Assembly (NCBI RefSeq): GCF_018860565.1
Contig: NZ_JAHKPS010000009.1
Span: 186,001 to 250,000, forward strand
DNA: 64,000 bases
Direction of reading: 5' to 3'
DNA from: Winogradskyella psychrotolerans
GTDB lineage: Bacteria > Bacteroidota > Bacteroidia > Flavobacteriales > Flavobacteriaceae
Shown: positions 47,207 through 62,457 of the stretch, in pieces
Layout of the letters: the number at the start of each line of letters is the position of its first letter
How positions within the stretch are numbered: the first letter of the stretch is position 1
Program-made: the position numbers and the translations under genes
Notes under the pieces: model-generated
Told to the model about the DNA's origin: nothing
What the model saw: only the letters and a program-made list of their open reading frames with translations
Database searches by the model: none

Positions 47207-47230
47207 TTTGATTTTTTTTAAACAACGAAA

Positions 47231-47259
47231 CAAAACGTGATCATTTAAACCACGTTTTG
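47231..47259 (-). terminator. Hairpin (terminator or attenuator) after hsp20
   Basis: A perfect 9-bp stem CAAAACGTG / CACGTTTTG has an 11-nt loop. The following T stretch on the minus strand is interrupted, so it may be a partial terminator letting some transcripts reach the next gene. Confidence 0.6.
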
Positions 47260-47270
47260 TTTTTCTGTTG

Positions 47271-47761: not shown

Positions 47762-47804
47762 CTAAATTACTTATAATAAATCGCTTATAAAATGACAAAT
47801 GTCA
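47762..47804 (-). promoter_or_regulatory. FNR/FixK-like operator and -7 box of hsp20
   Basis: Read toward hsp20, the dyad is TGACATTTGTCA (47793-47804). The -7-like element TAATTTAG (47762-47769) begins 23 nt after the TCA. The predicted transcript start is about 47756, putting the dyad centre near -41.5, a class II activator position. Same geometry as the other five sites of the island. Confidence 0.75.
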
Positions 47805-47821
47805 GTTTTAGCCATTAACTT

Positions 47822-49195
47822 TTAAACCAACACTTTACTTACATCGGTAAGTTTAGGTATGGTGGCATTCCAATTGTATACAGCTTTTAATTTCACTCTA
47901 AAAGCGTCCAATGATGCTGGCTCTCCATGAATTAGATATACATGTTCTGGTACATTTTTAATATCACTAACCCAGTCCAATAAATCTTTCTGATCTGCAT
48001 GAGCCGATAAGCTTTCAATATTTTTTATCGTAGCTTTTACGGGATAGTATTTTCCAAAAAACCGAATTTCGTGGGCTCCTTCTTGTAGTTGTCTGCCACG
48101 AGTGCCTTCGGCCTGATAACCTACTAACAAAACAGTTGTAGATGGTTCGTCTATAAGTTGTTTTAAATAGGTTAAAACGCGTCCTCCTGTAACCATACCA
48201 CTTCCTGCAATTATGATTTTAGAGCGTTTATCGTCAATAGTTTCCCAAGTTTCTTTGTATGATTGAATAATATTAACATGATTACACATGGCAGTATAAT
48301 CTTCAGAAGATAGTTTATGCCATTTTGGAAAACGTTTAAAAACATCTAACACATTATTTCCCATAGGACTATCTACAAAAATTGGAATGTTAGGAATTCT
48401 GTTTTTTTGATATAATTTCCACAGAATAAACATTAATGTTTGTAAGCGTTCTACGGCAAAACTAGGTATTATAAGATTCCCTTTTTTATGAATTGTTTCT
48501 AAAATGATTTCGGTTAGTACATCTTCAATATTTTCTACAGGATGTAGTTTGTTACCATAAGTACTTTCAATAAACAACACATCTGCCCATTCTGGTTTTT
48601 TAGGATCGCTTAATAAATAATCATTTTTTCTTCCTATATCTCCAGAAAACACAAATCGCTTTTCGTTAATATCTAATTCTATAAACGTTGCTCCAATAAT
48701 ATGGCCGTTATACTGAAAACGGAAAGCGATATGTTCTGATAATTGCACCCATTTATCTTCAAGTTCTACCTCAAATTGTTTTATGGTATTTTCGGCATCC
48801 TTAATAGTATAAAAAGGCAAGGCAGGGCTATGTTTAGTATATTTTTCCTTATTTGCTTTATTCGCTTCTTCCTCGTGTATTTTAGCACTATCTTTTAATA
48901 TAATTTCTGCAATTGCCAAAGTTGGTGCTGTACCTTTAATCTTTCCTTTAAAACCTTGTTTTAACAAACGCGGAAGATAGCCAACATGGTCTAAGTGTCC
49001 ATGAGTTAACACCACTACATCAATAGAACTTACATCTATAGGAAGATCTTCCCAATTAAGTTCTCGCAGCGCTTTTAAACCTTGAAACATACCACAATCT
49101 ATAAGGATATTTTTTTCTGAAGTTTCAATTAAAAATTTTGACCCCGTTACAACTCCTGCTGCACCTAAAAAATTGATTTTTACAAATTTTTCCAT
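47822..49195 (-). CDS. Beta-CASP metallo-beta-lactamase fold RNase
   Basis: This 457 aa protein has the metal-binding motif THGHLDHVGYLPRL (residues 64-77), further ligands in FSGDIGRK, and the beta-CASP part with SFAVERLQTL. GSGMVTGGRVLTYL, YQAEGTRGRQL and LSAHADQKDLL follow. These match the CPSF-73/TTHA0252 branch of exo/endoribonucleases, so an RNA substrate is likely. It begins 12 nt after the ATP-cone nuclease gene, so the two are one operon under the operator at 50220. Its length and motifs look intact. Confidence 0.88.
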   Translation of the reverse strand: MEKFVKINFLGAAGVVTGSKFLIETSEKNILIDCGMFQGLKALRELNWEDLPIDVSSIDVVVLTHGHLDHVGYLPRLLKQGFKGKIKGTAPTLAIAEIILKDSAKIHEEEANKANKEKYTKHSPALPFYTIKDAENTIKQFEVELEDKWVQLSEHIAFRFQYNGHIIGATFIELDINEKRFVFSGDIGRKNDYLLSDPKKPEWADVLFIESTYGNKLHPVENIEDVLTEIILETIHKKGNLIIPSFAVERLQTLMFILWKLYQKNRIPNIPIFVDSPMGNNVLDVFKRFPKWHKLSSEDYTAMCNHVNIIQSYKETWETIDDKRSKIIIAGSGMVTGGRVLTYLKQLIDEPSTTVLLVGYQAEGTRGRQLQEGAHEIRFFGKYYPVKATIKNIESLSAHADQKDLLDWVSDIKNVPEHVYLIHGEPASLDAFRVKLKAVYNWNATIPKLTDVSKVLV

Positions 49196-49207
49196 TTTAA
49201 TATTTGA

Positions 49208-50047
49208 TTAGCCACATAAATGTGAAATTTCATCTAGAATTTTCTTTTTTCGCGTTTCAGAAACACCAAGATGATCTAAATAAAACTTATCGTTTATTAA
49301 TTCTCTACAGAGTACAACAGACCGACTTAAAAGAAACTGCTTTTCGCGTTGCGAAAGCAATGTGGATACGGTTATTGGATATAAGCCTAAACGGTCAATT
49401 CGGTCTTTTAAACCATCATTTAGAGGGTAATCCCAACTCAATAAATACAATCCACAACAATTACCATATTCTAATGCATCTTTTGTAAACCTTGTATTTG
49501 TAACGACCCAACCTTGTGTAAGCGGGTCTTCCTTTTTCCTTAGCTTTTGCCAATTATCTTTAATATCTCGGTATCTTGAATTGATATATAAAGGAATTTT
49601 AACGTTACAATTAAGACCTTGATCACCGTGAAATTTACACTCAATAATGGTGACTTCAGAATTTTTTCGCGCTATCACATCGACCTCATGTGACACACAT
49701 TTACCTTGTAAAATTTTACCAATTTCGGTCTTATAGCCAGAATATTTTAAAATAGCACTTACAAAGCGCTCAAAAGGAAAACCTGTTGGCCCTAATTCGT
49801 AAATCGCCTTCTTTAATTTATATTTTGAAGCGAAATAGCTTTTGTTTTTTTTAAGTAAGGCAAATGCTCTGTTGTATATCTCTTTGGTTGAAATACCTTG
49901 ATAGAGTTCATCACGAACTTTATCCAATACCTGATTAACAATATGTTCTTCTGCACCAGATCGCTTTAATGATGCTCGTAATTTTTCTAATGAAAATTTT
50001 ACTTTTTCACCTGAGGATTTAATAATATCTATGTCTGAAATATTCAT
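49208..50047 (-). CDS. ATP-cone / Mrr-like predicted nuclease
   Basis: This 279 aa protein has an N-terminal ATP-cone (residues 5-88: VKFSLEKLRASLKRSGA and ISTKEIYNRAFALLKK), known as a nucleotide-sensing module. A PD-(D/E)xK core follows: HEVDVIARKN with Asp123 and IIECKF with Glu136 and Lys138, plus the GWVVTNTRFTKDALEYG strand of Mrr-like enzymes. The C-terminus ETRKKKILDEISHL resembles a helix-hairpin-helix. I infer a nucleotide-gated DNA or RNA nuclease. No methylase or restriction partner is adjacent; instead it is translated ahead of a beta-CASP RNase. Confidence 0.78.
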   Translation of the reverse strand: MNISDIDIIKSSGEKVKFSLEKLRASLKRSGAEEHIVNQVLDKVRDELYQGISTKEIYNRAFALLKKNKSYFASKYKLKKAIYELGPTGFPFERFVSAILKYSGYKTEIGKILQGKCVSHEVDVIARKNSEVTIIECKFHGDQGLNCNVKIPLYINSRYRDIKDNWQKLRKKEDPLTQGWVVTNTRFTKDALEYGNCCGLYLLSWDYPLNDGLKDRIDRLGLYPITVSTLLSQREKQFLLSRSVVLCRELINDKFYLDHLGVSETRKKKILDEISHLCG

Positions 50048-50188
50048 ATTGATGTTTTAAAAACTGTCTAAACAAAATTTGTTTTAACCGCTTTACTTCC
50101 TAGTCACAAACAATTATATACTTCGCTAGAGATTAAATTTTAATGCTCATAAAAATTGGTTAAAATAACTGTGTTTAGATTTTATTTA

Positions 50189-50231
50189 TAAAGTTAAAGT
50201 GTTAACAATCTATAAACTATGATATATATCA
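50189..50231 (-). promoter_or_regulatory. FNR/FixK-like operator and -7 box of the nuclease/RNase operon
   Basis: The dyad TGATATATATCA (50220-50231, perfectly symmetric) is followed 23 nt later by TAACTTTA (50189-50196), one base from TAnnTTTG. The leader to the ATG at 50047 would be about 140 nt, longer than for the other sites. The rest of this 312-bp gap holds a terminator and nothing else I can support. Confidence 0.72.
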
Positions 50232-50250
50232 GATAGGTTTATATAAAAAA

Positions 50251-50275
50251 ACATCTAACTAAAATAGCTAGATGT
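50251..50275 (-). terminator. Intrinsic terminator of the usp operon
   Basis: ACATCTAACT and AGCTAGATGT pair over 10 positions with one mismatch around AAAAT. On the minus strand a T run follows. It is about 85 bases past the small membrane-protein gene and 20 bases before the operator of the next operon. Confidence 0.65.
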
Positions 50276-50359
50276 CTTTCTGATTAATAGCAAAAATCAT
50301 TTTTAAATATGTATAAGCACTAAATAAAAAGAATAGGTTTCTCTTTCTAATTTTTAAAC

Positions 50360-50746
50360 TTATACAAGTACAATTCCATAGACCTCATTCAGTAAAAAAA
50401 CACCAATTAAAAACAATAACGTATAAATTACTTGAACCATTTTAACATTGATGATTACCAGCCATTTAACTGTTTTCTTAGGAAACATAAATAAAGCTAA
50501 TCCTAAAAACAAAGAGGTCCAACCAATGAGTGTAATAATTAAGGTGTAATTCGGCTCCCAAATGTTATGAAATATTACATTTAGTAATCCAATGATAATA
50601 GCCATAAAAGAAAAAATGATTAGAAATTTTTCATCTTTTAAATCATTAAATATTTGTTTAATACGCTTTGGGTTAAGACTTAATATTAAAAAGAAAATGA
50701 TAAGATACCATCCCCAAAATTTTGCTAAAAAAACTGAAGTGTCCAT
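50360..50746 (-). CDS. Small membrane protein encoded with the universal stress protein
   Basis: This 128 aa protein has four predicted membrane helices (about residues 5-20, 40-60, 68-88 and 100-125) and short charged loops. I recognise no family. It starts 12 nt after the usp stop, so it is expressed under the same operator and may act in the inner membrane during the stress response. Confidence 0.65.
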   Translation of the reverse strand: MDTSVFLAKFWGWYLIIFFLILSLNPKRIKQIFNDLKDEKFLIIFSFMAIIIGLLNVIFHNIWEPNYTLIITLIGWTSLFLGLALFMFPKKTVKWLVIINVKMVQVIYTLLFLIGVFLLNEVYGIVLV

Positions 50747-50758
50747 AATTAAAGTGAT

Positions 50759-51598
50759 TTATTCGTGCAATACCAAAAACGGTATATCTGTATGATATGT
50801 TATTTTTTCAACTCTAGTATGAAATAGAATATTTTGAAAATAATTTAGATTCTTAGCTACCATAACAATCATATCTACAGCTCTACTTTCTACAAAGCAC
50901 TGTATAGCATCTTCGACTTTTTTATTAGTAAGAAAATGGAAACTTGGATTAAATTCTTCAAAATAATCATTAAGCAATTCTTTATTATTGAGTTGTTCTG
51001 GGTTTAATGATGCTGCTTTACCTTGAATATGTATAACTCTTAGATTACTCTCTAAATTTTTTAAAATATCTGTTAAAGGTTGTAGTATATTAATATCGTA
51101 CGAGAGATTAAAATCTGACGAAAATGCAATTTCCTTTAACGCTTTATATTTGGCGTATTCTGGAACGACTAAAGTGGTGCATTTTACTTTAGTAATAACA
51201 TCTCCGGTGTTACTTCCTATGATATATTCCTTAAGTCCTGATGCGCCTTTTGTACCCATAACAATCATATCTATTTTCTTTTCTTCGACATGTTTTCTTA
51301 CCGATTCTAAAAAGAAATAATTATCAATAAGTGTGTAAAAACGGTGTTTTGGATTTTCACCGTGATTTTCACTTATTTCTTTGAGTAGTTGTCTTAATTT
51401 ATCTCTTGAAGGCTTAGTATATATTTCTTCTATAACTTCTGCTGTTGGCATGTAACTGTCTTCGCCTGCAACTATAGCCTCTATTCTGTTAACATGAAGC
51501 AGGTAAAAATTACATTCCGAAGATTTAAAAAAATCTATAGCATACGAAATAGCATTGCGTGCGTTTTCAGAAAAATCCGTTGGTAATAAAATATTCAT
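50759..51598 (-). CDS. Universal stress protein with two Usp domains
   Basis: This 279 aa protein starts at the ATG at 51598; a GTG one codon upstream is also possible. Domain 1 (residues 1-150) begins NILLPTDFSENARNAISYA and ends in the ATP-binding loop VMGTKGASGLKEYIIGSNTG. Domain 2 (about 155-279) begins EIAFSSDFNLSYDINIL and lacks the clear GxxG loop, so only domain 1 is likely to bind nucleotide. It is the first gene after the strongest operator in the island, an exactly symmetric 22-bp palindrome. Confidence 0.9.
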   Translation of the reverse strand: MNILLPTDFSENARNAISYAIDFFKSSECNFYLLHVNRIEAIVAGEDSYMPTAEVIEEIYTKPSRDKLRQLLKEISENHGENPKHRFYTLIDNYFFLESVRKHVEEKKIDMIVMGTKGASGLKEYIIGSNTGDVITKVKCTTLVVPEYAKYKALKEIAFSSDFNLSYDINILQPLTDILKNLESNLRVIHIQGKAASLNPEQLNNKELLNDYFEEFNPSFHFLTNKKVEDAIQCFVESRAVDMIVMVAKNLNYFQNILFHTRVEKITYHTDIPFLVLHE

Positions 51599-51621
51599 CA
51601 CTTTAAATTTCTTAGTGTAAA

Positions 51622-51669
51622 CAAATTTAAAGCGATGTACACTTTTATAATATGATATTGGTCATATTA
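51622..51669 (-). promoter_or_regulatory. FNR/FixK-like palindrome and -7 box of usp
   Basis: A perfect 8-bp inverted repeat TAATATGA-N6-TCATATTA (51648-51669) contains the core dyad, read toward usp as TGACCAATATCA. The exact -7 element TAAATTTG (51622-51629) begins 23 nt after the TCA. The predicted start is about 51617, some 20 nt before the usp ATG, with the dyad centred near -41.5. It is the best-defined site of the six. Confidence 0.82.
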
Positions 51670-51687
51670 GATAAACACGAAAAGGGA

Positions 51688-52740
51688 TTAGTGGATGTCT
51701 TGCAATTTCTGAAGGTCTAAAACCTTTATGTTTCTACCTTCCATTTCTATGAGTCCTTGCTTTTTAAAATGAGACATGGTTCTTATCAAGGTCTCAGTAG
51801 CAATACCGGCAACACTTGCCAAATCGTTACGGGAAATTTTAATAGGATCTTCTGGTTTTGAATTTATCTTTTCTGCAAACCTTAAGATGGTTAAAGCCGT
51901 TTTTCTTTGTACAGAACTGTAAGCCATTTGTAATAATTGGTCTTTAACACCTGTAATGTCATCGGTTAATAACTGAATAACTTCTAAAGTTAGCTTGTGA
52001 TTTTTATCCAATACCTCTTTTAACTGGGCTTTAGAAACACCTACCATTTCTACATCTTTCAAAGCTATTGCTGTTTCTCTATAAGGAATATTATCTGTGA
52101 ATGACGTATAACCAAAAAGATCGTCTTCTTTATAAAGTGCTGTAGTAAGCTCCTTTCCTTTTTCATCAAATTTATAACACCTTACAATACCTTTAGTCAC
52201 TAAATAAATATAATTAGAATTATGTCCTTCTTTGTAAATGATATCATTTTTGCTGTAGTTAAAAATCTTCCCATTATCATCAAAGAAGTTTTTTAAATCA
52301 TTTAAGGTTCTTAATTCATCTTCATTGGTATCACTAGTGTTATTAGCAGATTCTCGTTCATCCTTCAATATAGCAGCTTTTGCAATTCTACTCTCTATAG
52401 CACTTAAAATTTCATCTTCAGAAAAAGGTTTTGTAATATAATCATCGGCTCCTAAATTCATGCCTTTTCTTACATCTCCACGTTCGGTCTTAGCAGATAA
52501 AAATATAAATGGAATAAACTTGGTGCTATCCTGTTTTGATAGGCCTTCTAATACAGCATATCCATCGAGAATAGGCATCATTATATCACATATTATAATA
52601 TCTGGAGTTTGATTTCTTGCGACTTCTAGGCCTATTTGTCCGTTGGCAGCAGTAATTACCTCATAGTTAGAAAGCTCTAATAATTCTGCTGTATTTTCTC
52701 TTAATACGGTATCGTCTTCTATTAATAATACTGTTTTCAT
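51688..52740 (-). CDS. Response regulator with CRP/FNR-type DNA-binding output
   Basis: This 350 aa protein has a receiver domain (residues 1-120; acidic pocket EDD, phospho-acceptor Asp52 in IICDIMMP, Lys104 in YITKPFS). A linker follows, then a cNMP-binding fold (about 150-270: EGHNSNYIYLVTKGIVRCY and LFGYTSF). The Crp-type HTH (about 302-335) has GIATETLIRTMSHFKKQGLI. Glu316 and Arg320 align with the TGA-contacting residues of CRP and FNR. It shares an ATGA overlap with the kinase gene. I infer that phosphorylation lets it activate the TGA-N6-TCA promoters of this island. The cNMP pocket may not bind a ligand. Confidence 0.9.
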   Translation of the reverse strand: MKTVLLIEDDTVLRENTAELLELSNYEVITAANGQIGLEVARNQTPDIIICDIMMPILDGYAVLEGLSKQDSTKFIPFIFLSAKTERGDVRKGMNLGADDYITKPFSEDEILSAIESRIAKAAILKDERESANNTSDTNEDELRTLNDLKNFFDDNGKIFNYSKNDIIYKEGHNSNYIYLVTKGIVRCYKFDEKGKELTTALYKEDDLFGYTSFTDNIPYRETAIALKDVEMVGVSKAQLKEVLDKNHKLTLEVIQLLTDDITGVKDQLLQMAYSSVQRKTALTILRFAEKINSKPEDPIKISRNDLASVAGIATETLIRTMSHFKKQGLIEMEGRNIKVLDLQKLQDIH

Positions 52741-54242
52741 TCTTGTGCTTTATTGGGAAGTTTTATGGTAAACGTTGAGCCTTTGTGTTCTTCGCTTTCA
52801 AATGCGATACTACCATTTAAGTTTTCTAAATGGTCTTTTACAATATTTAATCCAATACCTGTGCCTTGCATGAGTAATGCATTTTCTGCTCTAAAGTAGC
52901 GATTGAATATATTTTTTTGATCTTTCTCAGGAATACCAATACCATTATCCGTTACTTTAAAAATGGTAGTCGTTTCATTTTGAGAAATATTGATATCAAT
53001 AATGGTATTTTCAGAGGAATACTTAATAGCGTTATAAATTAAATTAGATAGAGATAGTTCTAAGATTTTTTCATCCTGATATAAAGAAATATCATCTATA
53101 TTTTCTGGATAGTTAATTTTCTGACCATCTTTTAATAACATATTGGCATTATAAATGACCTCATTTAAGACTTTACTCAATTTAAACGTGGTAAATTTAT
53201 AATTAACTTTACCTTTTTCTAGTTTTTCTACAGAAAGAAAATCGTTTAAAATGGTATTGAGATATTGAACTTTATCTGTAATAGTATTAATGTGTTTTTC
53301 TCGTTTTTCTTGCTGCTCAGTTAATTTATATTTTTTTAATAACATCGTAGAAGTTAAAATACCACTTAAAGGTGTTTTAAATTCATGTGATACCATGGAT
53401 AAAAATTTTGTTTTTAATTCATTTAATTCTTTTTCTGCAGCTAAAGCCATTTTAAGTTCTTCTGTACGTACGGCAACTGTTTTTTCTAAATTTTTAGTAT
53501 AATTTTTTTGTTCAGTTATATCCAAAATAATAGCCAAAAACACATCTTTATCTCCTAATTTTGAGCGCTGCAAATGTACATTTACAGGATATGTACTTCC
53601 TGACTTTCGTTTATGAACCGTTTCAAATTCAATCTTTTCGACTTTGGTATTATTAAGTAAATCTAATTTTTCTCTAAACTCCGATTCTTTAAATTCTGGT
53701 TTTATATCAAGAGGTGTCATATTGGTTAGTTCGTCTAAACTATAACCAATGTTTTTCTGTGCCCCATAATTAACGTTTATAAATTTTAAGTCTTGAGTGC
53801 TAAATACATAAATTTCATTTAGTGATTCCTGGAAAATACTTGCCAAATGGTTTCGTTCTTGCTCCATGTACTTACGCTCACTAATATCTATCACCAAAGC
53901 CATAACATAGTCTTTTCCGTATATGGTAAACGGGTTTAGTCCTGCTTCTACAGGAAAAACACTTCCATCTTTTCGAGCGCCAAAAAGATCGCGTCCATGC
54001 CCCATTTGCCTGCGCTCTTTATGCTTCATAAAACCATTAAAATGAGCTCCATGACCAGCATGATAATTTTGAGGGATTAAAACGTTTAAGGGCTGTTTTA
54101 TGAGTTCCCCTTTAGCATAACCAAACATTTGGTTTGCAGAATCATTAGTTTCAACTATATTTTGATGTTCATCAACCACTATAACCCCTTCGGAAACAGC
54201 GTCTAAAAGCACTCTAGATATATCTTGATCTTGTTGAAACAT
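52737..54242 (-). CDS. PAS-PAS sensor histidine kinase, FixL-like
   Basis: I start this 501 aa protein at the ATG at 54242; an in-frame TTG three codons up is less likely. PAS1 (about residues 10-125) resembles the FixL heme domain: LIPQNYHAGHGAHFNGF places His64 where FixL has its heme-ligating His, and MGHGRDLFGARKDG places Arg84 where FixL has the oxygen-contacting Arg. PAS2 spans about 130-250. The HisKA H-box is VSHEFKTPLSG (His286), followed by N-box NLIYNAIKYS and G-boxes DNGIGI and GTGIGL. There is no membrane segment, so it is a cytoplasmic sensor. Heme and oxygen sensing are inferred from alignment by eye. Confidence 0.88.
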   Translation of the reverse strand: MFQQDQDISRVLLDAVSEGVIVVDEHQNIVETNDSANQMFGYAKGELIKQPLNVLIPQNYHAGHGAHFNGFMKHKERRQMGHGRDLFGARKDGSVFPVEAGLNPFTIYGKDYVMALVIDISERKYMEQERNHLASIFQESLNEIYVFSTQDLKFINVNYGAQKNIGYSLDELTNMTPLDIKPEFKESEFREKLDLLNNTKVEKIEFETVHKRKSGSTYPVNVHLQRSKLGDKDVFLAIILDITEQKNYTKNLEKTVAVRTEELKMALAAEKELNELKTKFLSMVSHEFKTPLSGILTSTMLLKKYKLTEQQEKREKHINTITDKVQYLNTILNDFLSVEKLEKGKVNYKFTTFKLSKVLNEVIYNANMLLKDGQKINYPENIDDISLYQDEKILELSLSNLIYNAIKYSSENTIIDINISQNETTTIFKVTDNGIGIPEKDQKNIFNRYFRAENALLMQGTGIGLNIVKDHLENLNGSIAFESEEHKGSTFTIKLPNKAQE

Positions 54243-54282
54243 ATACTTCAAATATTAGGTTGATAAAGCATCTAAAGATAAC

Positions 54283-54325
54283 TGATTTATATCATTCTTT
54301 AAAACGAATACTAGCTCTAAATTTG
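54283..54325 (+). promoter_or_regulatory. FNR/FixK-like operator and -7 box of the TerB-like gene
   Basis: The dyad TGATTTATATCA (54283-54294) is followed 23 nt later by an exact -7 box TAAATTTG (54318-54325). The predicted start is about 54330, 19 nt before the ATG. The site lies in the 106-bp gap divergent from the kinase gene. On the kinase side no -7 box is found at the same spacing, so it probably serves the plus strand only. Confidence 0.78.
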
Positions 54326-54348
54326 ATTTATTCTAAAAACCTTAAAAC

Positions 54349-54759
54349 ATGGCAACTAAAAAGAAAATGACATTAGCATTTTATCAAAACCTTGGTAAAC
54401 TGTTTTATGCCATTGCAGCATCAGATGGCAATGTAAGACCTATAGAATTTGATAAATTAAAGAACCTTGTAAAAAAACAGTGGTTAGATATTGATGAGCT
54501 TGAAGATACTTTTGGTACAGATGCCGCTTACCAAATAGAAATTGTTTTTGACTGGTTAAATGAAAAAGAAGAACTCAACGCAGAAGCCTGTTTCAAAGAC
54601 TTTATCGCTTACAAAAAGAGCCAAAATCATCTTTTTACTCCAGACATTAGACGTTTAACGTTAAAAACAGCATCTACTATTGCTTATGCCTTTTCTGGCA
54701 TAAACAAGTCAGAATTAGCACTGTTAGCAAAACTAGATATAGAATTAAAAATACCTTAA
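54349..54759 (+). CDS. TerB-like helical protein
   Basis: This 136 aa protein is all-helical, with LGKLFYAIAASDGNVRPIEFDKLKNLV, the Asp-Gly-containing helix-loop typical of TerB/DjlA-like domains. The C-terminal helix is TLKTASTIAYAFSGINKSELALLAK. TerB-like domains appear in stress and envelope-linked modules, with metal-binding or scaffold roles. Function here is unknown. It has its own FNR-like promoter and precedes the ABC exporter genes by 68 nt without a visible terminator. Confidence 0.72.
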   Translation: MATKKKMTLAFYQNLGKLFYAIAASDGNVRPIEFDKLKNLVKKQWLDIDELEDTFGTDAAYQIEIVFDWLNEKEELNAEACFKDFIAYKKSQNHLFTPDIRRLTLKTASTIAYAFSGINKSELALLAKLDIELKIP

Positions 54760-54827
54760 AACGGCGCCATTACTACGACCAATTAAAATGAACATAGCAA
54801 ATAACAAGCTATACTAGCCTATTAGAC

Positions 54828-55910
54828 ATGAAAGTATATTTTTTTATCAGTGTTCTATTACTCTCGTTATCTTGTTCAGAAAAACAAGATAAAACCTTAC
54901 CTACCGAACAATCATTGTCCGAATCTGTTTATGCTTCCGCTACAATTCAACCAGATAGTCTCTATAATGTGTACGCTGTGGTTTCTGGAATTTTAGATGA
55001 CGTTTTAGTAAAAGAAGGAGACGTAGTAACTAAAGGTTCTCCCTTATTTCAAATCATAAATAGTACACCTAAACTAAATAGTGAAAATGCGAGGTTTGCC
55101 TTAGAACTCGCCAAAGAAAACTACAATGGTAGTGCCGCTATTTTGAGTAGTATAAACGATGAAATTGAGGCGGCTAAGCTTAAATTTAAAAATGATTCTG
55201 TGAATTATTTTAGACAAAAAAAGCTATGGGAACAGCATATAGGTTCTAAGCTGCAATACGACACTAAAAAGCTTAATTATGAACTAGCTGCAAATCAATT
55301 AAAGCTTCTAAAAAACAAATACGACAGAACTAAAAACGAACTACAAACAGCAGTAAACCAAGCTCAAAACAACTTTAATACAGCAGCCATTGCTACAAAT
55401 GACTTTATGGTTACAAGTAAAATAAACGGCAAAGTTTACGCGCTACTAAAAGAACCTGGTGAGATTGTAACAAGCATGGAACCACTAGCTGCAATTGGAA
55501 GTGCTAATCGTTTTGTAATTAATCTGTTAGTAGATGAAGTAGATATTGTTAGAATAAACAAATCTCAAGACGTATTACTTGTTTTAGAAGCTTATGCAAA
55601 TACCGTTTTTAAAGCTCAAATTTCTAAAATTTACCCAAAAAAAGATGAACGAAATCAAACTTTTACGGTTGAAGCCATATTTATAAATCCCCCAGAAGTT
55701 TTGTATCCTGGTCTTTCTGGTGAAGCTAATATTATCATTGCTAAAAAAGAAAACGTATTAACCATTCCTAAAGCTTATTTAATAGATCATAACAAAGTAA
55801 AAACAGACGAAGGTATCGTAACTGTAAAAACAGGTGTACAAAATATGGATGCTATAGAAATACTTTCAGGCCTCACTAAAGACACCTATATCTACAAACC
55901 AACAGAATGA
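54828..55910 (+). CDS. HlyD/RND-type periplasmic adaptor lipoprotein
   Basis: This 360 aa protein has lipobox LSC (FFISVLLLSLSC). The biotinyl-lipoyl-like halves are VVSGILDDVLVKEGDVVTKG and SKINGKVYALLKEPGEIV, separated by a long coiled-coil hairpin at about 80-185. Beta-barrel and membrane-proximal regions follow. It is the membrane-fusion part of an exporter, lying between the inner membrane and an outer channel not encoded here. Its stop overlaps the permease start by 4 nt. Confidence 0.85.
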   Translation: MKVYFFISVLLLSLSCSEKQDKTLPTEQSLSESVYASATIQPDSLYNVYAVVSGILDDVLVKEGDVVTKGSPLFQIINSTPKLNSENARFALELAKENYNGSAAILSSINDEIEAAKLKFKNDSVNYFRQKKLWEQHIGSKLQYDTKKLNYELAANQLKLLKNKYDRTKNELQTAVNQAQNNFNTAAIATNDFMVTSKINGKVYALLKEPGEIVTSMEPLAAIGSANRFVINLLVDEVDIVRINKSQDVLLVLEAYANTVFKAQISKIYPKKDERNQTFTVEAIFINPPEVLYPGLSGEANIIIAKKENVLTIPKAYLIDHNKVKTDEGIVTVKTGVQNMDAIEILSGLTKDTYIYKPTE

Positions 55911-57169
55911 CCAATTTGAATATTATATTAAGTATTGCAAAAACGCATTTGCTCACAAAACTGAAACAAACATCTATTGCTGCATTAGGTGTTACTTTTG
56001 GTATTGGCTCTTATATTACTTTAGTCTGTTTTATGACAGGTTTAAATACCATGTTAGACGATTTAATTCTAAATCAAACACCACATATTCATATTTACAA
56101 CGAAATTGAACCAACCGAAAACCAACCCATTTCATTATATGATGATTTTAAAAATATTTTTAACGTTGTTCATTCCATCAAACCCAAATTAAGTCAGAAA
56201 AAAATACATAACGCCTTACCTATTATCAATTATTTAGAAAACGATGATAAGGTATTAGGTGCGCTTCCGCAGGTAAAAGCACAAATTTTCTATATCGCAG
56301 GCTCGATAGAGCTTAGTGGAAATCTCACAGGCATTAACCCAATAGAAGAAGCCAAATATTTTAATATAGGTGATTATATTGTAGAAGGTTCTGCTGAAGC
56401 CTTGCAAAACACTGATAATGGGATTTTATTAGGTATTGGCATTGCAAAAAAAATGGCCTTAAAAGTTGGTGATCGTATTCAGGTAAGTCCAATAAACGGA
56501 GGTATATTCCATTTAAAGATTGTAGGATTTTATCAAAGTGGTGTTGCCGATTTAGATGCTATTCAAAGTTTTACTACTATTAAAACAGTACAACGCATTT
56601 TAGGAGAAGCTAATAACTATATCACAGACATTAATGTAAAACTAAATGACATAGAAACAGCGATACCATTAGCAAAAAAAATAGAACAACAATTTCAGCT
56701 TAAAGCTATTGATATAAAAACGGCAAATGCACAGTTTGAAACCGGAACCACGATTAGAAATTTAATTACATACGCGGTATCTATAACGCTTTTAATCGTT
56801 GCTGGATTTGGCATCTACAACATTTTAAATATGCTTATTTATGAAAAGATGAATGACATTGCTATTCTTAAAGCTATAGGGTTTTCAGGGAAGGATGTTC
56901 AATTTATATTTATGAGTCAAGCCATGATTATTGGTTTTGTTGGAGGTGTTTTGGGTTTAATTATTGGTTTTGGATTAACGAGTCTTATCGATACAATTCC
57001 CTTTAAAACTGAAGCCTTACCAACGGTAGATACATATCCTATAAATAAAGATCCGTTGTACTTTATCATTGGGTTTTCGTTTGCAATGGTTTCCACTTTT
57101 CTTGCAGGCTATTTGCCATCTAAGAAAGCAAAAAAAATAGATCCAGTAAAAATTATAAGAGGACAGTAA
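55907..57169 (+). CDS. ABC transporter permease, FtsX/MacB type
   Basis: This 420 aa protein has one N-terminal membrane helix (about residues 22-48), a large periplasmic domain, and three C-terminal helices (about 288-310, 335-360 and 385-405). The FtsX core is ILNMLIYEKMNDIAILKAIGFSG and the ending is YLPSKKAKKIDPVKIIRG. It belongs to the type VII/MacB-LolC-DevC exporter class. It is translated with the adaptor (ATGA overlap) and the ATPase (1-nt gap). The substrate is unknown. Confidence 0.88.
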   Translation: MTNLNIILSIAKTHLLTKLKQTSIAALGVTFGIGSYITLVCFMTGLNTMLDDLILNQTPHIHIYNEIEPTENQPISLYDDFKNIFNVVHSIKPKLSQKKIHNALPIINYLENDDKVLGALPQVKAQIFYIAGSIELSGNLTGINPIEEAKYFNIGDYIVEGSAEALQNTDNGILLGIGIAKKMALKVGDRIQVSPINGGIFHLKIVGFYQSGVADLDAIQSFTTIKTVQRILGEANNYITDINVKLNDIETAIPLAKKIEQQFQLKAIDIKTANAQFETGTTIRNLITYAVSITLLIVAGFGIYNILNMLIYEKMNDIAILKAIGFSGKDVQFIFMSQAMIIGFVGGVLGLIIGFGLTSLIDTIPFKTEALPTVDTYPINKDPLYFIIGFSFAMVSTFLAGYLPSKKAKKIDPVKIIRGQ

Positions 57170-57170
57170 T

Positions 57171-57845
57171 ATGAGTATTGTTTTAGAAGCTAAACATATC
57201 AATAAATATTTTAAAAAACCTGTGAAGTTTCACGTGTTAAAGGATATTAGTTTTCAAATTAAAAAAGGGGAATTTGCATCCATCATGGGAAAATCGGGCT
57301 GTGGAAAATCGACATTACTTTACATTCTATCTACCATGGATACCGATTATGAAGGCGAACTGTATCTCAAAAACAAACTTATAACAGGTCAAGATAGTAC
57401 GCATTTATCCTATTTACGTAACAAGCATATTGGTTTTGTCTTTCAGTTTCATTATTTACTTTCAGAGTTTTCAGTATTAGAAAACGTAATGTTGCCTGCC
57501 AAGAAATTAGCAGAAAAATCGCTTCAAGAAATTGAGCACAATGCCATGCAAAAGCTTAAAATCTTAAATATTGAGCATTTAGCTCATAAAAAAGCTTCTC
57601 GCGTTTCTGGTGGCGAAAAACAACGTGTAGCTATAGCACGTGCGCTTATAAACGATCCTGCTATAATTATGGGAGATGAACCTACAGGAAATTTAGACAG
57701 CCATAATGCCGAAAATGTGTTTAACATTTTTAAACAATTGAGTGTTAAGCAAGGTTTATCACTTTTAATAGTAACACATGATGAAGATTTTGCAAATAAA
57801 ACCGATAGAATTATTCAAATGGGAGATGGAAAAATACTCCCTTAG
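57171..57845 (+). CDS. ABC transporter ATP-binding protein, MacB/LolD type
   Basis: This 224 aa ATPase has Walker A GKSGCGKST, Q-loop FVFQFHYLLSEFSV, signature VSGGEKQRVAIARAL, Walker B IIMGDEPTGNLD and the H-loop VTHDEDFA. It powers the adaptor-permease pair just upstream. Gene order adaptor, permease, ATPase matches DevBCA-type exporters. The next gene has its own operator, so this ends the unit. Confidence 0.92.
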   Translation: MSIVLEAKHINKYFKKPVKFHVLKDISFQIKKGEFASIMGKSGCGKSTLLYILSTMDTDYEGELYLKNKLITGQDSTHLSYLRNKHIGFVFQFHYLLSEFSVLENVMLPAKKLAEKSLQEIEHNAMQKLKILNIEHLAHKKASRVSGGEKQRVAIARALINDPAIIMGDEPTGNLDSHNAENVFNIFKQLSVKQGLSLLIVTHDEDFANKTDRIIQMGDGKILP

Positions 57846-57861
57846 CTTCACCTCTTATTTA

Positions 57862-57904
57862 TGATATAAATCATTTGTAATAAGCGTATTTGTAACTAAC
57901 TTTA
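57862..57904 (+). promoter_or_regulatory. FNR/FixK-like operator and -7 box of the cbpA operon
   Basis: The dyad TGATATAAATCA (57862-57873) is followed 23 nt later by TAACTTTA (57897-57904), the same -7-like box as in the nuclease operon. The predicted start is about 57909, roughly 19 nt before the first gene. Confidence 0.76.
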
Positions 57905-57927
57905 TAATCAAGTTTTAATCAAATGCT

Positions 57928-58140
57928 ATGAAAACAATTCAAGACATAGAAAACCAAATCATCACTTTAACAACAAGTATTGAGGTAAATTATCCTGAAT
58001 TATATGCGACCTTGGATGAAAACCCAATGACTATTCCTACTAAAATTCATCCCGATATGACTATTAAGATTATGGAAGATTATCTCGAAAGTTTAAAACA
58101 AATATTAAAACAATACAGTAAAACTCATAATAAACAGTAA
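57928..58140 (+). CDS. Short helical protein before cbpA
   Basis: This 70 aa protein is charged and helical ([17 protein letters not shown] and [18 protein letters not shown]). I recognise no family. It begins directly behind the operator and its stop shares one base with the ATG of the J-domain gene, which strongly suggests real translation. It may be a small partner of the chaperone system. Confidence 0.65.
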
Positions 58141-59024
58141 TGGCATTTATAGATTATTATAAAATACTTGGTATTTCAAAGAGTGCCACAGAAAACGATA
58201 TTAAAAAAGCTTATCGTAAGTTGGCACGTAAATACCATCCAGACCTCAATCCAAATGATAAGGATGCTGAGCAAAAATTTAAGGAGATTAACGAAGCTAA
58301 CGAAGTATTAAGCAATGCTGAAAATCGTAAAAAATACGATGAATATGGAGAACATTGGCAACATGCAGAAGAATACGAAAAAGCGAAACAGCAAGAGCAG
58401 TATCAACGAAGCTCACAAAGCACTCAAGGAGGTTATTCTGAAGAAGATTTCTCAGATTTTTTTGGTAACATGTTTGGTGGTAGAGCTTCTGGAAGCGGCG
58501 GAAGACAAGTAAAATTTAGAGGTCAAGATTTTAATGCGCAACTACAACTAGACCTAAAAGATGTTTACACCACACACAAACGCACATTAACCGTAAATAA
58601 CAAAAACATAAGAATTACCATTCCTGCTGGTGTAGAAAATGGACAAGTCATTAAAATAAAAGGACATGGCGGAAAAGGCATGAATGGTGGTCCAAATGGC
58701 GATTTGTATATTGAGTTTTCTGTGGTTAATAATTCCCCATTTAGAAGGGATGGAAACAACCTATATATTGCTGTAGATTTAGACTTATACAAAGCCCTTT
58801 TAGGTGGCGAAATTATGGTAAACACCTTTGATGGTAAAGTAAAACTTAAGGTAAAACCAGAAACCCAAAACGGCACTAAAGTAAAGTTAAAAGGCAAAGG
58901 GTTTCCTAAATACAAAAAAGAAGGTCAATATGGAGATTTGTATGTTACTTACAACTTAAAGTTACCTGAAAATCTTTCAGCAAAAGAAAAAGAACTTTTT
59001 ACAGAACTCTCAAAATTGCGATAA
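58140..59024 (+). CDS. cbpA: CbpA-type DnaJ co-chaperone
   Basis: This 294 aa protein has a J domain (residues 4-70) with the HPD motif in KYHPDLNP (His33-Asp35). A Gly/Phe-rich linker ([18 protein letters not shown]) follows, then two C-terminal substrate-binding barrels ([19 protein letters not shown] and [17 protein letters not shown]). There is no zinc-finger repeat, so it is CbpA-like, not DnaJ. It stimulates DnaK. It is co-transcribed with cbpM 1 nt downstream, as in Escherichia coli. Confidence 0.92.
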
Positions 59025-59025
59025 T

Positions 59026-59322
59026 ATGGACACAACACAACTTATATCAATACAACAGTTTTGCACGCATTACAATGTGCCTATAAAGTTTATTAATGCT
59101 TTACAAGAATACGAATTAATAGAAATCACTATTACGGACAATCAAGATTATTTACAGACAAATCAGCTTAATGCTATTGAAAAAATGATGCGAATGCATT
59201 ATGATTTAGACATTAATTTTGAAGGGATTGATGCCATTTATAATTTACTAAAACAAGTAGAACAACTACAAGAAGAAATACGTGTTTTAAAGAACAAATT
59301 GAGCGTTTATGAAGGTTTTTAA
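59026..59322 (+). CDS. cbpM: CbpM-like chaperone modulator
   Basis: This 98 aa protein has a MerR-like N-terminal helix-turn-helix (LISIQQFCTHYNVPIKFINAL) and a C-terminal coiled coil (LLKQVEQLQEEIRVLKNKL). CbpM proteins bind the J domain of CbpA and block it. Its placement just behind cbpA supports the call. Confidence 0.82.
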   Translation: MDTTQLISIQQFCTHYNVPIKFINALQEYELIEITITDNQDYLQTNQLNAIEKMMRMHYDLDINFEGIDAIYNLLKQVEQLQEEIRVLKNKLSVYEGF

Positions 59323-59331
59323 TCCTCTACT

Positions 59332-60255
59332 ATGACGTCTATAGAATACATAAAAGAATGGTTAAACGCCAATCCATTTAGTTGGAATGTGATTAGGTTC
59401 ATTGCCATTTTAATAGTTATTTTATTGGCCATTCAGCTAATAAGACGTTATTTAAAAAAGCGTATTTCTAATACCTCGATTCGCTATAAATCCCAAAAAG
59501 GCATAGAAATTTTAGGCTATGTGCTGTTAATCTTTTTAGCCATCACTTATTTTTCTGGATCTATAAAAGATTTTACAATCATCATAGGCTTATTTACAGC
59601 GGGTTTAGCATTTACATTACAAGAATTAATTTTAAGTATAGCGGGTTCTATTTATATCTTTTTAGTAAAAGTTTATAAACCAGGAGATCGAATTGAAATC
59701 AATGGTATTAAAGGAGATGTTATTGATGTAGATAGCATTTATACCACCATGATGGAGATAGGCCAATGGGTTGAAAGTGACAATTATAGTGGGCGAATTG
59801 TAAAACTGAGTAATGCCTTCGTTTTTAAAGGACCAATCTATAACTATTCGCAAGATTTTCCTTTTATCTGGGATCAATTCAACTTGCCAATTCGTTATGG
59901 TTCTGATATGGAACTTGCCAAAACTATTGTACTTAAAATTGCTTCAGAAACCCTTTCAGAATACACCAAAGCATCTAAATTCCAATGGGAAGCGGTAGTC
60001 AATAAATATTATATTGAAGATGCCGAAGTTGGACCAACACTCGCTATTAGACTTACTGATAATTGGGTAGAATTTAATTTAAGATATATTGTAGATTACA
60101 AAAAAAGACGATTGACAAGACACCTACTTCACGATAATATTCGTAAAGCTTTTGAAACAACCAACGGCAAGGTCGTATTAGCATCAACGACCATAGAACT
60201 TATTAAAATTCCTGAACAAAAGGTACAATCAGAAGAAGCTAAAAAGACACAATAG
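59332..60255 (+). CDS. MscS-family mechanosensitive channel
   Basis: This 307 aa protein has N-terminal membrane helices (about residues 18-38 and 58-77) and the pore helix region TIIIGLFTAGLAFTLQELILSIAGS. The cytoplasmic MscS beta domain follows with YKPGDRIEINGIKGDVIDVD and KLSNAFVFKGPIYNYS. It opens on membrane tension to release osmolytes. It lies 9 nt after cbpM and is probably in the same stress operon. The motif set is complete and the length is normal for short MscS types. Confidence 0.88.
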   Translation: MTSIEYIKEWLNANPFSWNVIRFIAILIVILLAIQLIRRYLKKRISNTSIRYKSQKGIEILGYVLLIFLAITYFSGSIKDFTIIIGLFTAGLAFTLQELILSIAGSIYIFLVKVYKPGDRIEINGIKGDVIDVDSIYTTMMEIGQWVESDNYSGRIVKLSNAFVFKGPIYNYSQDFPFIWDQFNLPIRYGSDMELAKTIVLKIASETLSEYTKASKFQWEAVVNKYYIEDAEVGPTLAIRLTDNWVEFNLRYIVDYKKRRLTRHLLHDNIRKAFETTNGKVVLASTTIELIKIPEQKVQSEEAKKTQ

Positions 60256-60373
60256 CAAATAACGGTCATTTCTGTTTGTAAGCCACGACACTTCTAACAA
60301 TTTGATTTTTAAACAAGTACATAATATAATTTAGTACTTTTAATAATTTTGAATTAAGATTATTTCATTCTCA

Positions 60374-62341
60374 ATGGCAAATAAAGAACAAGAAGCACAC
60401 TCTCATCATCAAATTTTAGGTAAAAAGACAGAGCTCTATTTTGCCTTTTTGTGCGGCATTTTTCTAAGCATAGGTTTTTTCATTGAAAAATTAACAGGTT
60501 TAGCAGATTGGATGTCTTTATTAAGCTACATAATTTCCTACTTTTTGGGAGGTTTCTTTATCTCTATTGAAGCATCTAAAAAAATTCCTAAAGGCGAATT
60601 TGATATTGATTTTTTAATGATTGCTGCAGCTGTTGGTGCGGCCTATATTGGTAGTTGGGCAGAAGGCGCATTGCTTTTATTTCTATTTAGCTTGGGCCAC
60701 GCTTTAGAGCATTACGCCATGAATAAAGCTAAAAAATCAATTGAAGCTTTAGGCCATCTTTCTCCCAAAACAGCACTGGTTAAAAAAAACGGGCAACTTA
60801 AAGAAGTTGCAATAGAAGCTTTAAAAATTAATGATGTTATTGTAGTAAAACCTAATACTAAAATTGCTGCTGATGGTGTTATTATAAATGGTAGTACAAG
60901 CATTAATCAGGCACCAATAACAGGAGAAAGCATACCTGTAGACAAAACCTTTATTAAAAACACTACAAATTTACCAGAGTTTAAAGATATTAACAAAACT
61001 CATGTCGTCTTTGCAGGCACCATTAATGGAGATAGCAGCATTGAGATTTTAGTACTCAAACTAACAAAAGACTCCACAGTATCACGATTGGTAAAAATGG
61101 TAAGCGAAGTTGAAGCTCAAAAATCACCAACCCAAAGGCTCACCAAAAAATTCGAAAAATGGTATGTACCCATTGTTATTATCGTTGTATTTCTATTGTG
61201 TTTTGCATTCTTGGTTATAGACGAAAGTTTTGATACTAGTTTATATAGAGCTATAACAGTATTAGTTGCTGCCAGCCCTTGCGCCTTAGCAATTTCTACA
61301 CCAAGTGCTGTTTTAAGTGGTATTGCAAGAGCAGCACAAAAAGGAGTACTTATTAAAGGTGGAAAAGCCTTAGAAGATTTAGGCGAAATCACAACGATAG
61401 CTTTTGATAAAACCGGTACACTCACAGAAGGAAAACCTAAACTTACAAATCTAATTCCGTTAAAGAATATTGATGAAAAAACCTTGGCTAAGCTGGTGTT
61501 TGAAGTCGAAAGTTTAAGCAATCATCCACTAGCAAAAGCCATAGCAAATGATTTAAAGCTAAAATACACTATTGATTTCGATAATAAAGCCTCAAATATT
61601 AACGCCATTCAAGGAAAAGGTATTCAAGCAAATTATGAGAGCAAAAAAGCATTCATCGGAAATGTAAAACTGATGGAAGACTCAGACATAAAAGTGACTG
61701 ATTCTATCCACTCTAAAATGGATCAGCTTTTACAAAATGGACACACCGTAATGCTAGTGGCTTTTAATAATGAAATTGTTGGACTAATTAGTGTTATGGA
61801 TTTACCTCGAAAAACGGCTACCTCTACTCTATTACGTTTAAAAGAAATTGGCATTAAACACATGATTATGCTCACAGGTGACCATCAAAATGTTGGAGAT
61901 GCCATTGCCAAACAAATTGGACTCACGGAAGCCAAAGGGAACTTACTACCAGAAGATAAAGTTTCAGCTATAAAACAATTAATCAAACGCGACAAAAAAA
62001 TAGCCATGGTTGGAGATGGTGTTAATGACGCACCTGCAATGGCATTGAGCACCGTTAGTATTGCCATGGGAGCCGCAGGAAGTGATGTTGCTTTAGAAAC
62101 AGCCGATGTCGCTTTAATGTCAGATAAAATTGAAAATTTACCTTTTGTTATTGGTTTGAGTAGAGCGTCTAAACGTATTATAAAACAGAACATTTTTATA
62201 AGTCTTGGTGTTGTAATACTGCTGGTTCCTGTAACCATTTTAGGGTTAACAAATATAGGTGTAGCTGTTGCTTTTCATGAAGGCTCAACCATTGTAGTGG
62301 TTTTAAATGCTTTACGACTGCTTCGCTACAAAGTGAATTAA
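60374..62341 (+). CDS. P1B-4 type heavy-metal transporting ATPase
   Basis: This 655 aa ATPase has the transmembrane metal motif SPC (residues 301-303), not CPC, and HEGST at about 635 in the last helix; together these define the P1B-4 subgroup linked to Co, Fe or Zn export. Phosphorylation Asp345 is in DKTGTLT, the HP motif is SNHPLAKAI, and the hinge is MVGDGVNDAP. There is no N-terminal CxxC metal domain, only a short His-rich start (EAHSHHQ). The gene lies 118 bp after mscS and has TAATTTTG upstream but no dyad of the island type. Confidence 0.9.
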   Translation: MANKEQEAHSHHQILGKKTELYFAFLCGIFLSIGFFIEKLTGLADWMSLLSYIISYFLGGFFISIEASKKIPKGEFDIDFLMIAAAVGAAYIGSWAEGALLLFLFSLGHALEHYAMNKAKKSIEALGHLSPKTALVKKNGQLKEVAIEALKINDVIVVKPNTKIAADGVIINGSTSINQAPITGESIPVDKTFIKNTTNLPEFKDINKTHVVFAGTINGDSSIEILVLKLTKDSTVSRLVKMVSEVEAQKSPTQRLTKKFEKWYVPIVIIVVFLLCFAFLVIDESFDTSLYRAITVLVAASPCALAISTPSAVLSGIARAAQKGVLIKGGKALEDLGEITTIAFDKTGTLTEGKPKLTNLIPLKNIDEKTLAKLVFEVESLSNHPLAKAIANDLKLKYTIDFDNKASNINAIQGKGIQANYESKKAFIGNVKLMEDSDIKVTDSIHSKMDQLLQNGHTVMLVAFNNEIVGLISVMDLPRKTATSTLLRLKEIGIKHMIMLTGDHQNVGDAIAKQIGLTEAKGNLLPEDKVSAIKQLIKRDKKIAMVGDGVNDAPAMALSTVSIAMGAAGSDVALETADVALMSDKIENLPFVIGLSRASKRIIKQNIFISLGVVILLVPVTILGLTNIGVAVAFHEGSTIVVVLNALRLLRYKVN

Positions 62342-62414
62342 TTGCTGTTTTATAAAAATTACAATTAACCTTTAAATAAAGAAAGAGATCAACTCATTTG
62401 ATTTTTAGTAGAAC

Positions 62415-62457
62415 TGACCAATATCATAGTCTAAAGCAAACATTCTGAATAAATTAG
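62415..62457 (+). promoter_or_regulatory. FNR/FixK-like operator and -7 box of the DUF3298 lipoprotein gene
   Basis: The dyad TGACCAATATCA (62415-62426) is identical to the usp dyad, and the identity extends over 14 nt (to TGACCAATATCATA). TAAATTAG (62450-62457), one base from TAnnTTTG, begins 23 nt after the TCA. The leader to the ATG is about 90 nt. Confidence 0.75.

Follow-up and report, generated by a model that had tools for sequence, protein, structure and literature searches.

Six promoters in a Winogradskyella psychrotolerans island point to a probable low-oxygen Crp-family regulon in Flavobacteriaceae

Six promoters within a 15-kb island of the Winogradskyella psychrotolerans genome share one inverted repeat, TGAY-N4-RTCA, set at one distance from a -7 box. 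Do these sites belong to a single regulon, and which protein reads them? The window in which they were noticed is a stretch of 64,000 nucleotides (nt) (assembly GCF_018860565.1, contig NZ_JAHKPS010000009.1, positions 186,001 to 250,000). A first-pass annotation had proposed one regulon with class II activation, driven by a response regulator with a Crp-type helix-turn-helix (HTH) that is encoded in the middle of the island and is here called REC-Crp. The dyad, AA(C/A)TGAY-N4-RTCAT in its fuller form, recurs across Flavobacteriaceae with its core ending 23 nt before TAnnTTT(G/A), mostly upstream of gene starts, and its sites co-occur with two Crp-family proteins, REC-Crp and an FNR-like protein. 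The six promoters are probably part of a genome-wide Crp-family activator regulon that is switched on at low oxygen by REC-Crp, perhaps jointly with the FNR-like protein. Results from the whole genome and from the family strongly support a single regulon with the class II geometry predicted from the fixed spacing. The proposal fell short on which proteins may activate the regulon and on how far it reaches.

Each of the six dyads has the position, strand and gene-ward orientation first ascribed to it, and in every promoter the box begins 23 nt after the dyad. Two of the boxes are exact copies of TAnnTTTG, the -7 box of Bacteroidota primary-sigma promoters (PMC7366714, excerpt), and four are one-base variants. 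Ten matches to TGAYNNNNRTCA occur in the window, where shuffles expect 4.07 (at least ten in 3 of 100 shuffles). Six of the ten are non-coding and are exactly the reported dyads; the other four, at 20333, 33354, 46300 and 54163, lie in called open reading frames (ORFs). By our own ORF calling, non-coding DNA holds six dyads in 1,391 nt between 46 and 64 kb and none in 3,655 nt of the first 46 kb (Fisher p = 4e-4), which agrees with the earlier inspection of those gaps by eye. With TAnnTT at its window-wide density of 0.0117 per position, finding it at one offset in six of six promoters has p = 2.6e-12, or 1.6e-10 allowing 60 offsets, figures that are somewhat too strong if, as is probable, AT-rich gaps are denser in TAnnTT.

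The combined motif extends well beyond the island. Across the genome (3.9 Mb, window included), TGAYNNNNRTCA-N23-TANNTT has 33 matches on several contigs and the reversed pattern has 3; this bears out the regulon and removes its restriction to the island. When the spacer was left free between 14 and 32 nt and a stricter box, TANNTTTG, was used, 15 of 30 matches fell at spacer 23 (19 spacers; binomial p = 5e-12). A refined motif, (A/C)TGAYNNNNRTCAT-N22-TANNTT, written (A/C)TGAY-N4-RTCAT-N22-TAnnTT, gives 23 matches against 0 in the control. Called start codons lie 25-34 nt from the box start at 16 of the 33 sites. Four of the 33 are inside a called ORF; one of these (locus L124) appears to reflect a wrongly called start codon, so that about three matches are likely to be false, as the reversed control predicts.

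Targets outside the window include a run encoding a cbb3 oxidase, ccoS-ccoNO-(ccoQ)-ccoP-(ccoG), with the bracketed names being our reading; hemN together with a usp gene; the copper nitrite reductase gene nirK; and a run made up of a 161-residue ORF, fasciclin, nosZ and nosD. NCBIfam cut-offs are passed by NosZ (Sec-dependent type), NosD, CcoN/CcoO, HemN and NirK; CcoP falls below its cut-off, and an NCBIfam search with the 161-residue ORF gave no match at 1e-10. The Sec-dependent NosZ of this genome is presumably of clade II. Other targets are more usp genes, two patatin-like proteins, an MlaE permease, a CBS protein, a TolC-type protein and a TonB protein. With the cbb3 oxidase, hemN, nirK and the nosZ operon among them, the targets look like a low-oxygen regulon. 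Genes of the cco, hemN, nirK and nos groups are typical targets of FNR and Anr. The target list of FixK and FnrN likewise agrees with this low-oxygen set (PMC4999443, excerpt).

Two further sites merit separate mention. A single dyad (L116:3138-3149; G000:C30:252138-252149, G000 being this genome) serves divergent promoters of a patatin-like protein and the MlaE permease, with a box 23 nt away on each side, and coordinates were obtained for similar divergent pairs in the family genomes G305, G398 and G361. A perfect site at L115:6531-6778 (G000:C5) was at one point considered a failed site, with no ORF of at least 60 residues downstream nearby. That reading was ruled out, because a 58-residue ORF follows, 36 nt from the box start; it shows a hydrophobic stretch by eye and matches no Pfam family above cut-off.

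Conservation was assessed in the best 80 of at least 583 REC-Crp loci (L031-L110; 1.587 Mb scanned), which are annotated as Flavobacteriaceae or Flavobacteriales or come from genera belonging to these groups; Psychroserpens burtonensis and Olleya namhaensis are among the carriers of REC-Crp. At spacer 23, 155 dyads are followed by TAnnTTTG; no other spacer from 0 to 59 has more than 9 such cases. For the shorter TAnnTT the counts are 462 at spacer 23, 71 at spacer 0 and at most 30 at the rest, the spacer-0 peak being the T-rich flank of the dyad itself; the reversed dyad has 0 at spacer 23. At least one site is present in 79 of the 80 loci. The first gene after a site best matches the usp gene of the window in 69 of 80 loci, the terB-like gene in 50 and hsp20 in 19. 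Of the 462 sites, 394 have an ORF no more than 400 nt away, and in 236 of these 394 the box start and the start codon are 25-34 nt apart; the other 68 sites have no such ORF, and 39 of the 462 lie mostly inside a called gene. In 16 loci, the first gene after a site encodes a 68-residue protein that we read as HPF-like, a possible ribosome hibernation factor. The TAnnTTTG histogram also has shoulders at spacers 24-25 (9 and 6) and 33 (6), and the spacer-33 sites, about one helical turn past 23, might be class I-like.

The flanks of the dyad set it apart from the classical FNR/FixK box. TGA-N6-TCA is the core of Crp-family sites, and the flanking bases distinguish E. coli FNR (T at -1, hence TTGA, and A at +13) from CRP (GTGA). 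The logo of the 462 relative sites, in which TGA, TCA, Y, R and the TA and TT of the box were preset by the search, reads AA(C/A)TGAYATATRTCAT(T/A)TT...TAnnTTT(G/A). Only 6% of these sites carry T at -1, and 96% carry T in place of A at +13; in all six window dyads position -1 is C or A and position +13 is T. The label FNR/FixK-like, as first applied, is therefore sound for the core and not for the flanks. TTGAT-N4-ATCAA was rejected as the motif on these two bases and on the weak enrichment of the canonical box. In 199 family genomes, TTGAY-N4-RTCAA with the same -7 box occurs 196 times against 84 in the control (ratio 2.3), and TGAY-N4-RTCAT with that box 3,078 times against 236 (ratio 13), the ratios being the fairer comparison since the FNR pattern fixes two flanking bases and the RTCAT pattern one. 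The FixK/FnrN consensus has TTGA...TCAA (PMC4999443, excerpt). One family genome, G279, has the canonical TTGAY-N4-RTCAA box at the same spacing 7 times against 0 in the control, the top value among the 199.

The genome encodes four proteins with a Crp-type HTH. By eye, the helix glutamate expected to read TGA is present in only two of them, REC-Crp and the FNR-like protein, whose gene adjoins a presumed ccoI among cbb3 genes; both have the same key recognition-helix residues, E-x-x-I-R. Their distribution was compared with site number in 196 family genomes (199 minus G373, G289 and G266, with ambiguous FNR-like scores). Presence was called below E = 1e-60 for REC-Crp and below 1e-55 for the FNR-like protein, thresholds placed where the ranked E-values showed a gap; G437 was scored as having REC-Crp although its match covers residues 1-244 alone, and genomes outside the FNR-like match list were counted as without that gene. 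Genomes with both regulators (49) average 29.9 sites (reversed control 1.3), and 48 have at least six. The mean is 18.9 (control 1.1) in the 37 REC-Crp-only genomes, 36 with at least six sites; 11.6 (control 1.3) in the 67 FNR-like-only genomes, 54 with at least six; and 3.0 (control 1.0) in the 43 genomes with neither, 4 with at least six. Among 238 non-family genomes (247 minus G000, minus G057 and G155 as fragment matches, minus six other family members), the mean is 10.9 sites in the 119 that have REC-Crp and 5.4 in the 119 that lack it, with a control of 1.9 in both groups. Either regulator seems enough, and both together go with the most sites. REC-Crp as the sole explanation was dropped, because FNR-like-only genomes have sites too. 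The suggestion that REC-Crp is the activator gains support from the contrast between REC-Crp-only genomes and those with neither; it is not the sole candidate, and is better described as a sufficient, not exclusive, candidate activator. The profiled genomes are related, so p-values overstate independence and serve only as a guide.

The domain make-up of REC-Crp places it in the Crp/Fnr superfamily (PF00027, E = 4e-18; PF13545, E = 6.5e-14; both above cut-off) and among response regulators, with Asp52 and Lys104 each present in 80 of 80 relatives. Helix residues E316, I319 and R320 are likewise invariant in all 80. The corresponding residues of E. coli FNR are E, S and R, and I319 may set the altered flanking base. 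REC-Crp is classed neither as FixJ, which joins a receiver to a LuxR/NarL-type HTH, nor as FNR, which has four cysteines for a [4Fe-4S] cluster: its receiver is attached to a Crp-type output domain, it has two cysteines in all, and the dyad is unlike the FNR box. A single-sequence structure model was unusable (predicted local distance difference test, pLDDT, 42.8). In 77 of 80 relatives an ORF of at least 150 residues ends within 120 nt of the REC-Crp start, and all 77 have the HisKA histidine. The first PAS domain (PAS1) of the kinase in the window is closest to the haem domains of FixL and DosP, with FixL 1d06 as best PDB match (E = 2.6e-14). In a gapless alignment with this structure, His67 and Arg87 coincide with the proximal haem histidine and the distal arginine of FixL; they are conserved in 71 and 55 of 77 relatives, respectively. 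In the FNR-like protein, Cys4, 7, 53 and 106 are invariant in 18 of 18 relatives (18 extracted of 20 fetched). We take their spacing to be unlike that of E. coli FNR, and the protein is compatible with an iron-sulphur oxygen sensor.

In the mechanism that we propose, a Crp-type dimer would bind the dyad at about -41.5, where the fixed 23-nt spacing implies that its centre lies, and would contact RNA polymerase carrying the Bacteroidota primary sigma factor, as in class II activation. The adjacent FixL-like kinase would phosphorylate and activate REC-Crp when oxygen falls. The FNR-like protein with its four cysteines, whose gene lies next to the cbb3 genes, is probably a second reader of these sites and would add a direct oxygen input. 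The regulon would turn on high-affinity respiration (cbb3), oxygen-independent haem synthesis (hemN) and denitrification (nirK, nos), along with the stress and dormancy functions of Usp, Hsp20 and CbpA. Binding, activation and oxygen sensing by these regulators are what we infer from sequence comparison. The terB-like dyad lies 32 nt upstream of the called kinase start, on the opposite strand (gap 54252-54348), and binding there could repress the kinase-REC-Crp operon.

Several observations weigh against this account. The loose-spacer search of the genome gives 7 reversed-control matches beside its 30, and relative L068 has REC-Crp yet no site in its 21 kb. Fewer than six sites are present in 13 of 67 FNR-like-only genomes and 1 of 37 REC-Crp-only genomes, and many occur without either regulator in G294 (30 sites, 82% complete), G391 (29, 73%) and G382 (13, 99%). 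Non-family genomes without REC-Crp exceed their control, which implies that something else keeps sites there. Sites follow either regulator, and in this genome REC-Crp may share their control with the FNR-like protein. For some targets (3-hydroxyacyl-CoA dehydrogenase, DHBP synthase, peroxiredoxin and, likewise, a pyridine-nucleotide oxidoreductase), a function at low oxygen is not evident. Of 77 kinases, 6 do not show the PAS histidine and 22 do not show the arginine (one gap each), and histidines of this kind are also present in PAS domains with no known haem binding, which makes oxygen sensing the weakest step. As for the genomes with neither regulator, G382, where the control is 2, may use its sites through another Crp-family protein, and the fourth with at least six sites is G431 (6 against 2 in the control).

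Two alternatives accept a Crp-family regulon and change its driver or its signal. The FNR-like protein could be the main activator, with REC-Crp minor, competing or differently used, and in the island by chance. The identical E-x-x-I-R residues, the 54 FNR-like-only genomes with at least six sites and the FNR/Anr- and FixK/FnrN-type target list would all fit such an arrangement. It is nevertheless unlikely, given that six or more sites are present in all but one of the 37 REC-Crp-only genomes, that their mean exceeds that of FNR-like-only genomes (p = 2e-5, uncorrected for kinship), and that a site is found in nearly every REC-Crp locus whereas the FNR-like gene is in only 3 of 80. Alternatively, the same regulon and binding could answer another signal, such as redox state, nitric oxide or stationary phase, as a general survival programme; this differs in the signal alone and is compatible with the other readings. 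Usp, Hsp20, CbpA, the TerB-like protein and the HPF-like short protein do look like general survival genes, and the incomplete conservation of the PAS arginine points the same way. The same site in front of the cbb3 oxidase, oxygen-independent hemN, nirK and the nosZ operon, and the nearness of PAS1 to FixL and DosP, make a signal other than oxygen rather improbable.

Other explanations dispense with a Crp-family protein altogether. A dyad that formed part of an alternative-sigma-factor promoter would also keep a rigid spacing to the -7 box, and Bacteroides thetaiotaomicron is reported to have a second promoter motif that is nearly palindromic; the box here is, however, the ordinary primary-sigma TAnnTTTG (PMC7366714, excerpt for both). 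Site presence moreover follows two Crp-family genes. The TGA-N6-TCA core is also typical of their family, and the sigma-factor explanation is very unlikely. Chance palindromes in AT-rich intergenic DNA could be entertained because bare TGA-N6-TCA is common at 32% GC: the window holds 29 in 64 kb, about 1 per 2.2 kb and close to the frequency estimated at first pass. The spacer histogram, the reversed-pattern controls and the recurrence across genera lead us to regard chance as refuted.

The promoters and genes of the island are listed in Table 1. The name terB-like holds loosely, its TerB match lying below the Pfam cut-off, although the dyad and box of the gene are confirmed.

Table 1. Promoter elements and genes of the island (window positions)
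Feature	Positions	Strand	Basis or remark
Dyad TGACATTTGTCA, hsp20 promoter	47793..47804	-	motif scan
-7 box TAATTTAG, hsp20 promoter	47762..47769	-	23 nt from dyad
Dyad TGATATATATCA, nuclease/beta-CASP operon promoter	50220..50231	-	motif scan
-7 box TAACTTTA, nuclease/beta-CASP operon promoter	50189..50196	-	23 nt from dyad
Dyad TGACCAATATCA, usp promoter	51653..51664	-	motif scan
-7 box TAAATTTG, usp promoter	51622..51629	-	23 nt from dyad
Dyad TGATTTATATCA, terB-like promoter	54283..54294	+	motif scan
-7 box TAAATTTG, terB-like promoter	54318..54325	+	23 nt from dyad
Dyad TGATATAAATCA, cbpA operon promoter	57862..57873	+	motif scan
-7 box TAACTTTA, cbpA operon promoter	57897..57904	+	23 nt from dyad
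Dyad TGACCAATATCA, DUF3298 gene promoter	62415..62426	+	motif scan
-7 box TAAATTAG, DUF3298 gene promoter	62450..62457	+	23 nt from dyad
hsp20, small heat-shock protein	47271..47723	-	HSP20 PF00011 E = 5.5e-22; called ORF 46757-47284 overlaps gene end
Metallo-beta-lactamase/beta-CASP RNase-like protein	47822..49195	-	PF10996, PF07521, PF00753
ATP-cone + Mrr-type nuclease	49208..50047	-	PF03477, PF04471
Universal stress protein (usp)	50759..51601	-	PF00582 E = 2.3e-24
REC-Crp response regulator, candidate activator	51688..52740	-	receiver 4-116, cyclic-nucleotide (cNMP)-binding fold 161-247, Crp-type HTH 284-349
FixL-like sensor kinase	52737..54251	-	PAS-PAS-HisKA-HATPase; overlaps REC-Crp start by 4 nt
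TerB-like protein	54349..54759	+	PF05099 weak, E = 0.01
70-residue protein, first cbpA operon gene	57928..58140	+	no Pfam match at E<=1
DnaJ/CbpA-type co-chaperone	58140..59024	+	PF00226, PF01556
CbpM-like chaperone modulator	59026..59322	+	NF007617 E = 2e-7, below cut-off
DUF3298 protein	62554..63438	+	PF11738 E = 6.4e-6

A literature search returned no description of this motif or of a REC-Crp regulon in flavobacteria, and none of a regulator for nitrous-oxide reductase in flavobacteria. The excerpted text of PMC8510549 treats a Flavobacteriales CRP/FNR homolog as MalR-like and makes no mention of this motif. If the regulon is real, a 42-nt pattern with few false matches would predict the low-oxygen regulon of many flavobacteria, at least six sites being present in 142 of the 196 family genomes. 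Here, the regulon would include a Sec-dependent nitrous-oxide reductase, an enzyme that removes a greenhouse gas. Flavobacteria would also offer a second group, comparable to rhizobia, with FixL-like/FNR redundancy, for which two regulators can be named and exact sites given. The dyad-box sites may also serve as a tool for finding short genes, since one exposed a 58-residue ORF that gene calling had missed.

Among known systems, the class II promoters of E. coli FNR and Pseudomonas Anr offer a direct parallel: TGA-N6-TCA centred near -41.5, low-oxygen genes and universal stress proteins as targets. The flavobacterial promoters share the core and both kinds of target, with a predicted dyad centre at the same place; they differ from FNR in having C or A at -1 and T at +13 instead of T and A, in the helix E-x-x-I-R instead of E-x-x-S-R, and in the sigma factor. 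The mycobacterial DosR dormancy regulon likewise combines a haem-sensor kinase, here predicted, with a response regulator and with Usp and alpha-crystallin (Hsp20) targets, but DosR belongs to the NarL type, unlike the Crp-type output found here, and its site is unrelated. With ordinary Bacteroidota primary-sigma promoters (PMC7366714, excerpt) the -7 box is shared, and the 3' side of the dyad and its T-rich flank occupy the -33 region. In Alphaproteobacteria, FixL-FixJ drives fixK, and FixK and the iron-sulphur protein FnrN have very similar sites (PMC4999443, excerpt). The flavobacterial system has in common with this one a FixL-like PAS kinase, two-component input to a Crp-family activator, a parallel cysteine-bearing FNR-type protein, presumably reading identical or closely similar sites, and cco, hemN, nir and nos as targets, whereas its site is (C/A)TGAY-N4-RTCAT, not TTGANCNNGATCAA (PMC4999443, excerpt), and its promoter is the Bacteroidota TAnnTTTG. 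Because the flavobacterial receiver is fused to the Crp module, the FixJ-to-fixK transcription step drops out, and the layout resembles rhizobial FixLJ-FixK/FnrN logic with the roles of FixJ and FixK in one polypeptide. Bacteroidota may, with slightly less than even confidence, possess their own version of this system: FixJ and FixK merged in a phosphorylated Crp-type protein, a parallel four-cysteine FNR-like protein sharing its sites, and a third flank code, (C/A)TGA beside the TTGA of FNR and the GTGA of CRP, set by the E-x-x-I-R helix and controlling cbb3 respiration, nitrous-oxide reduction and dormancy genes class-wide.

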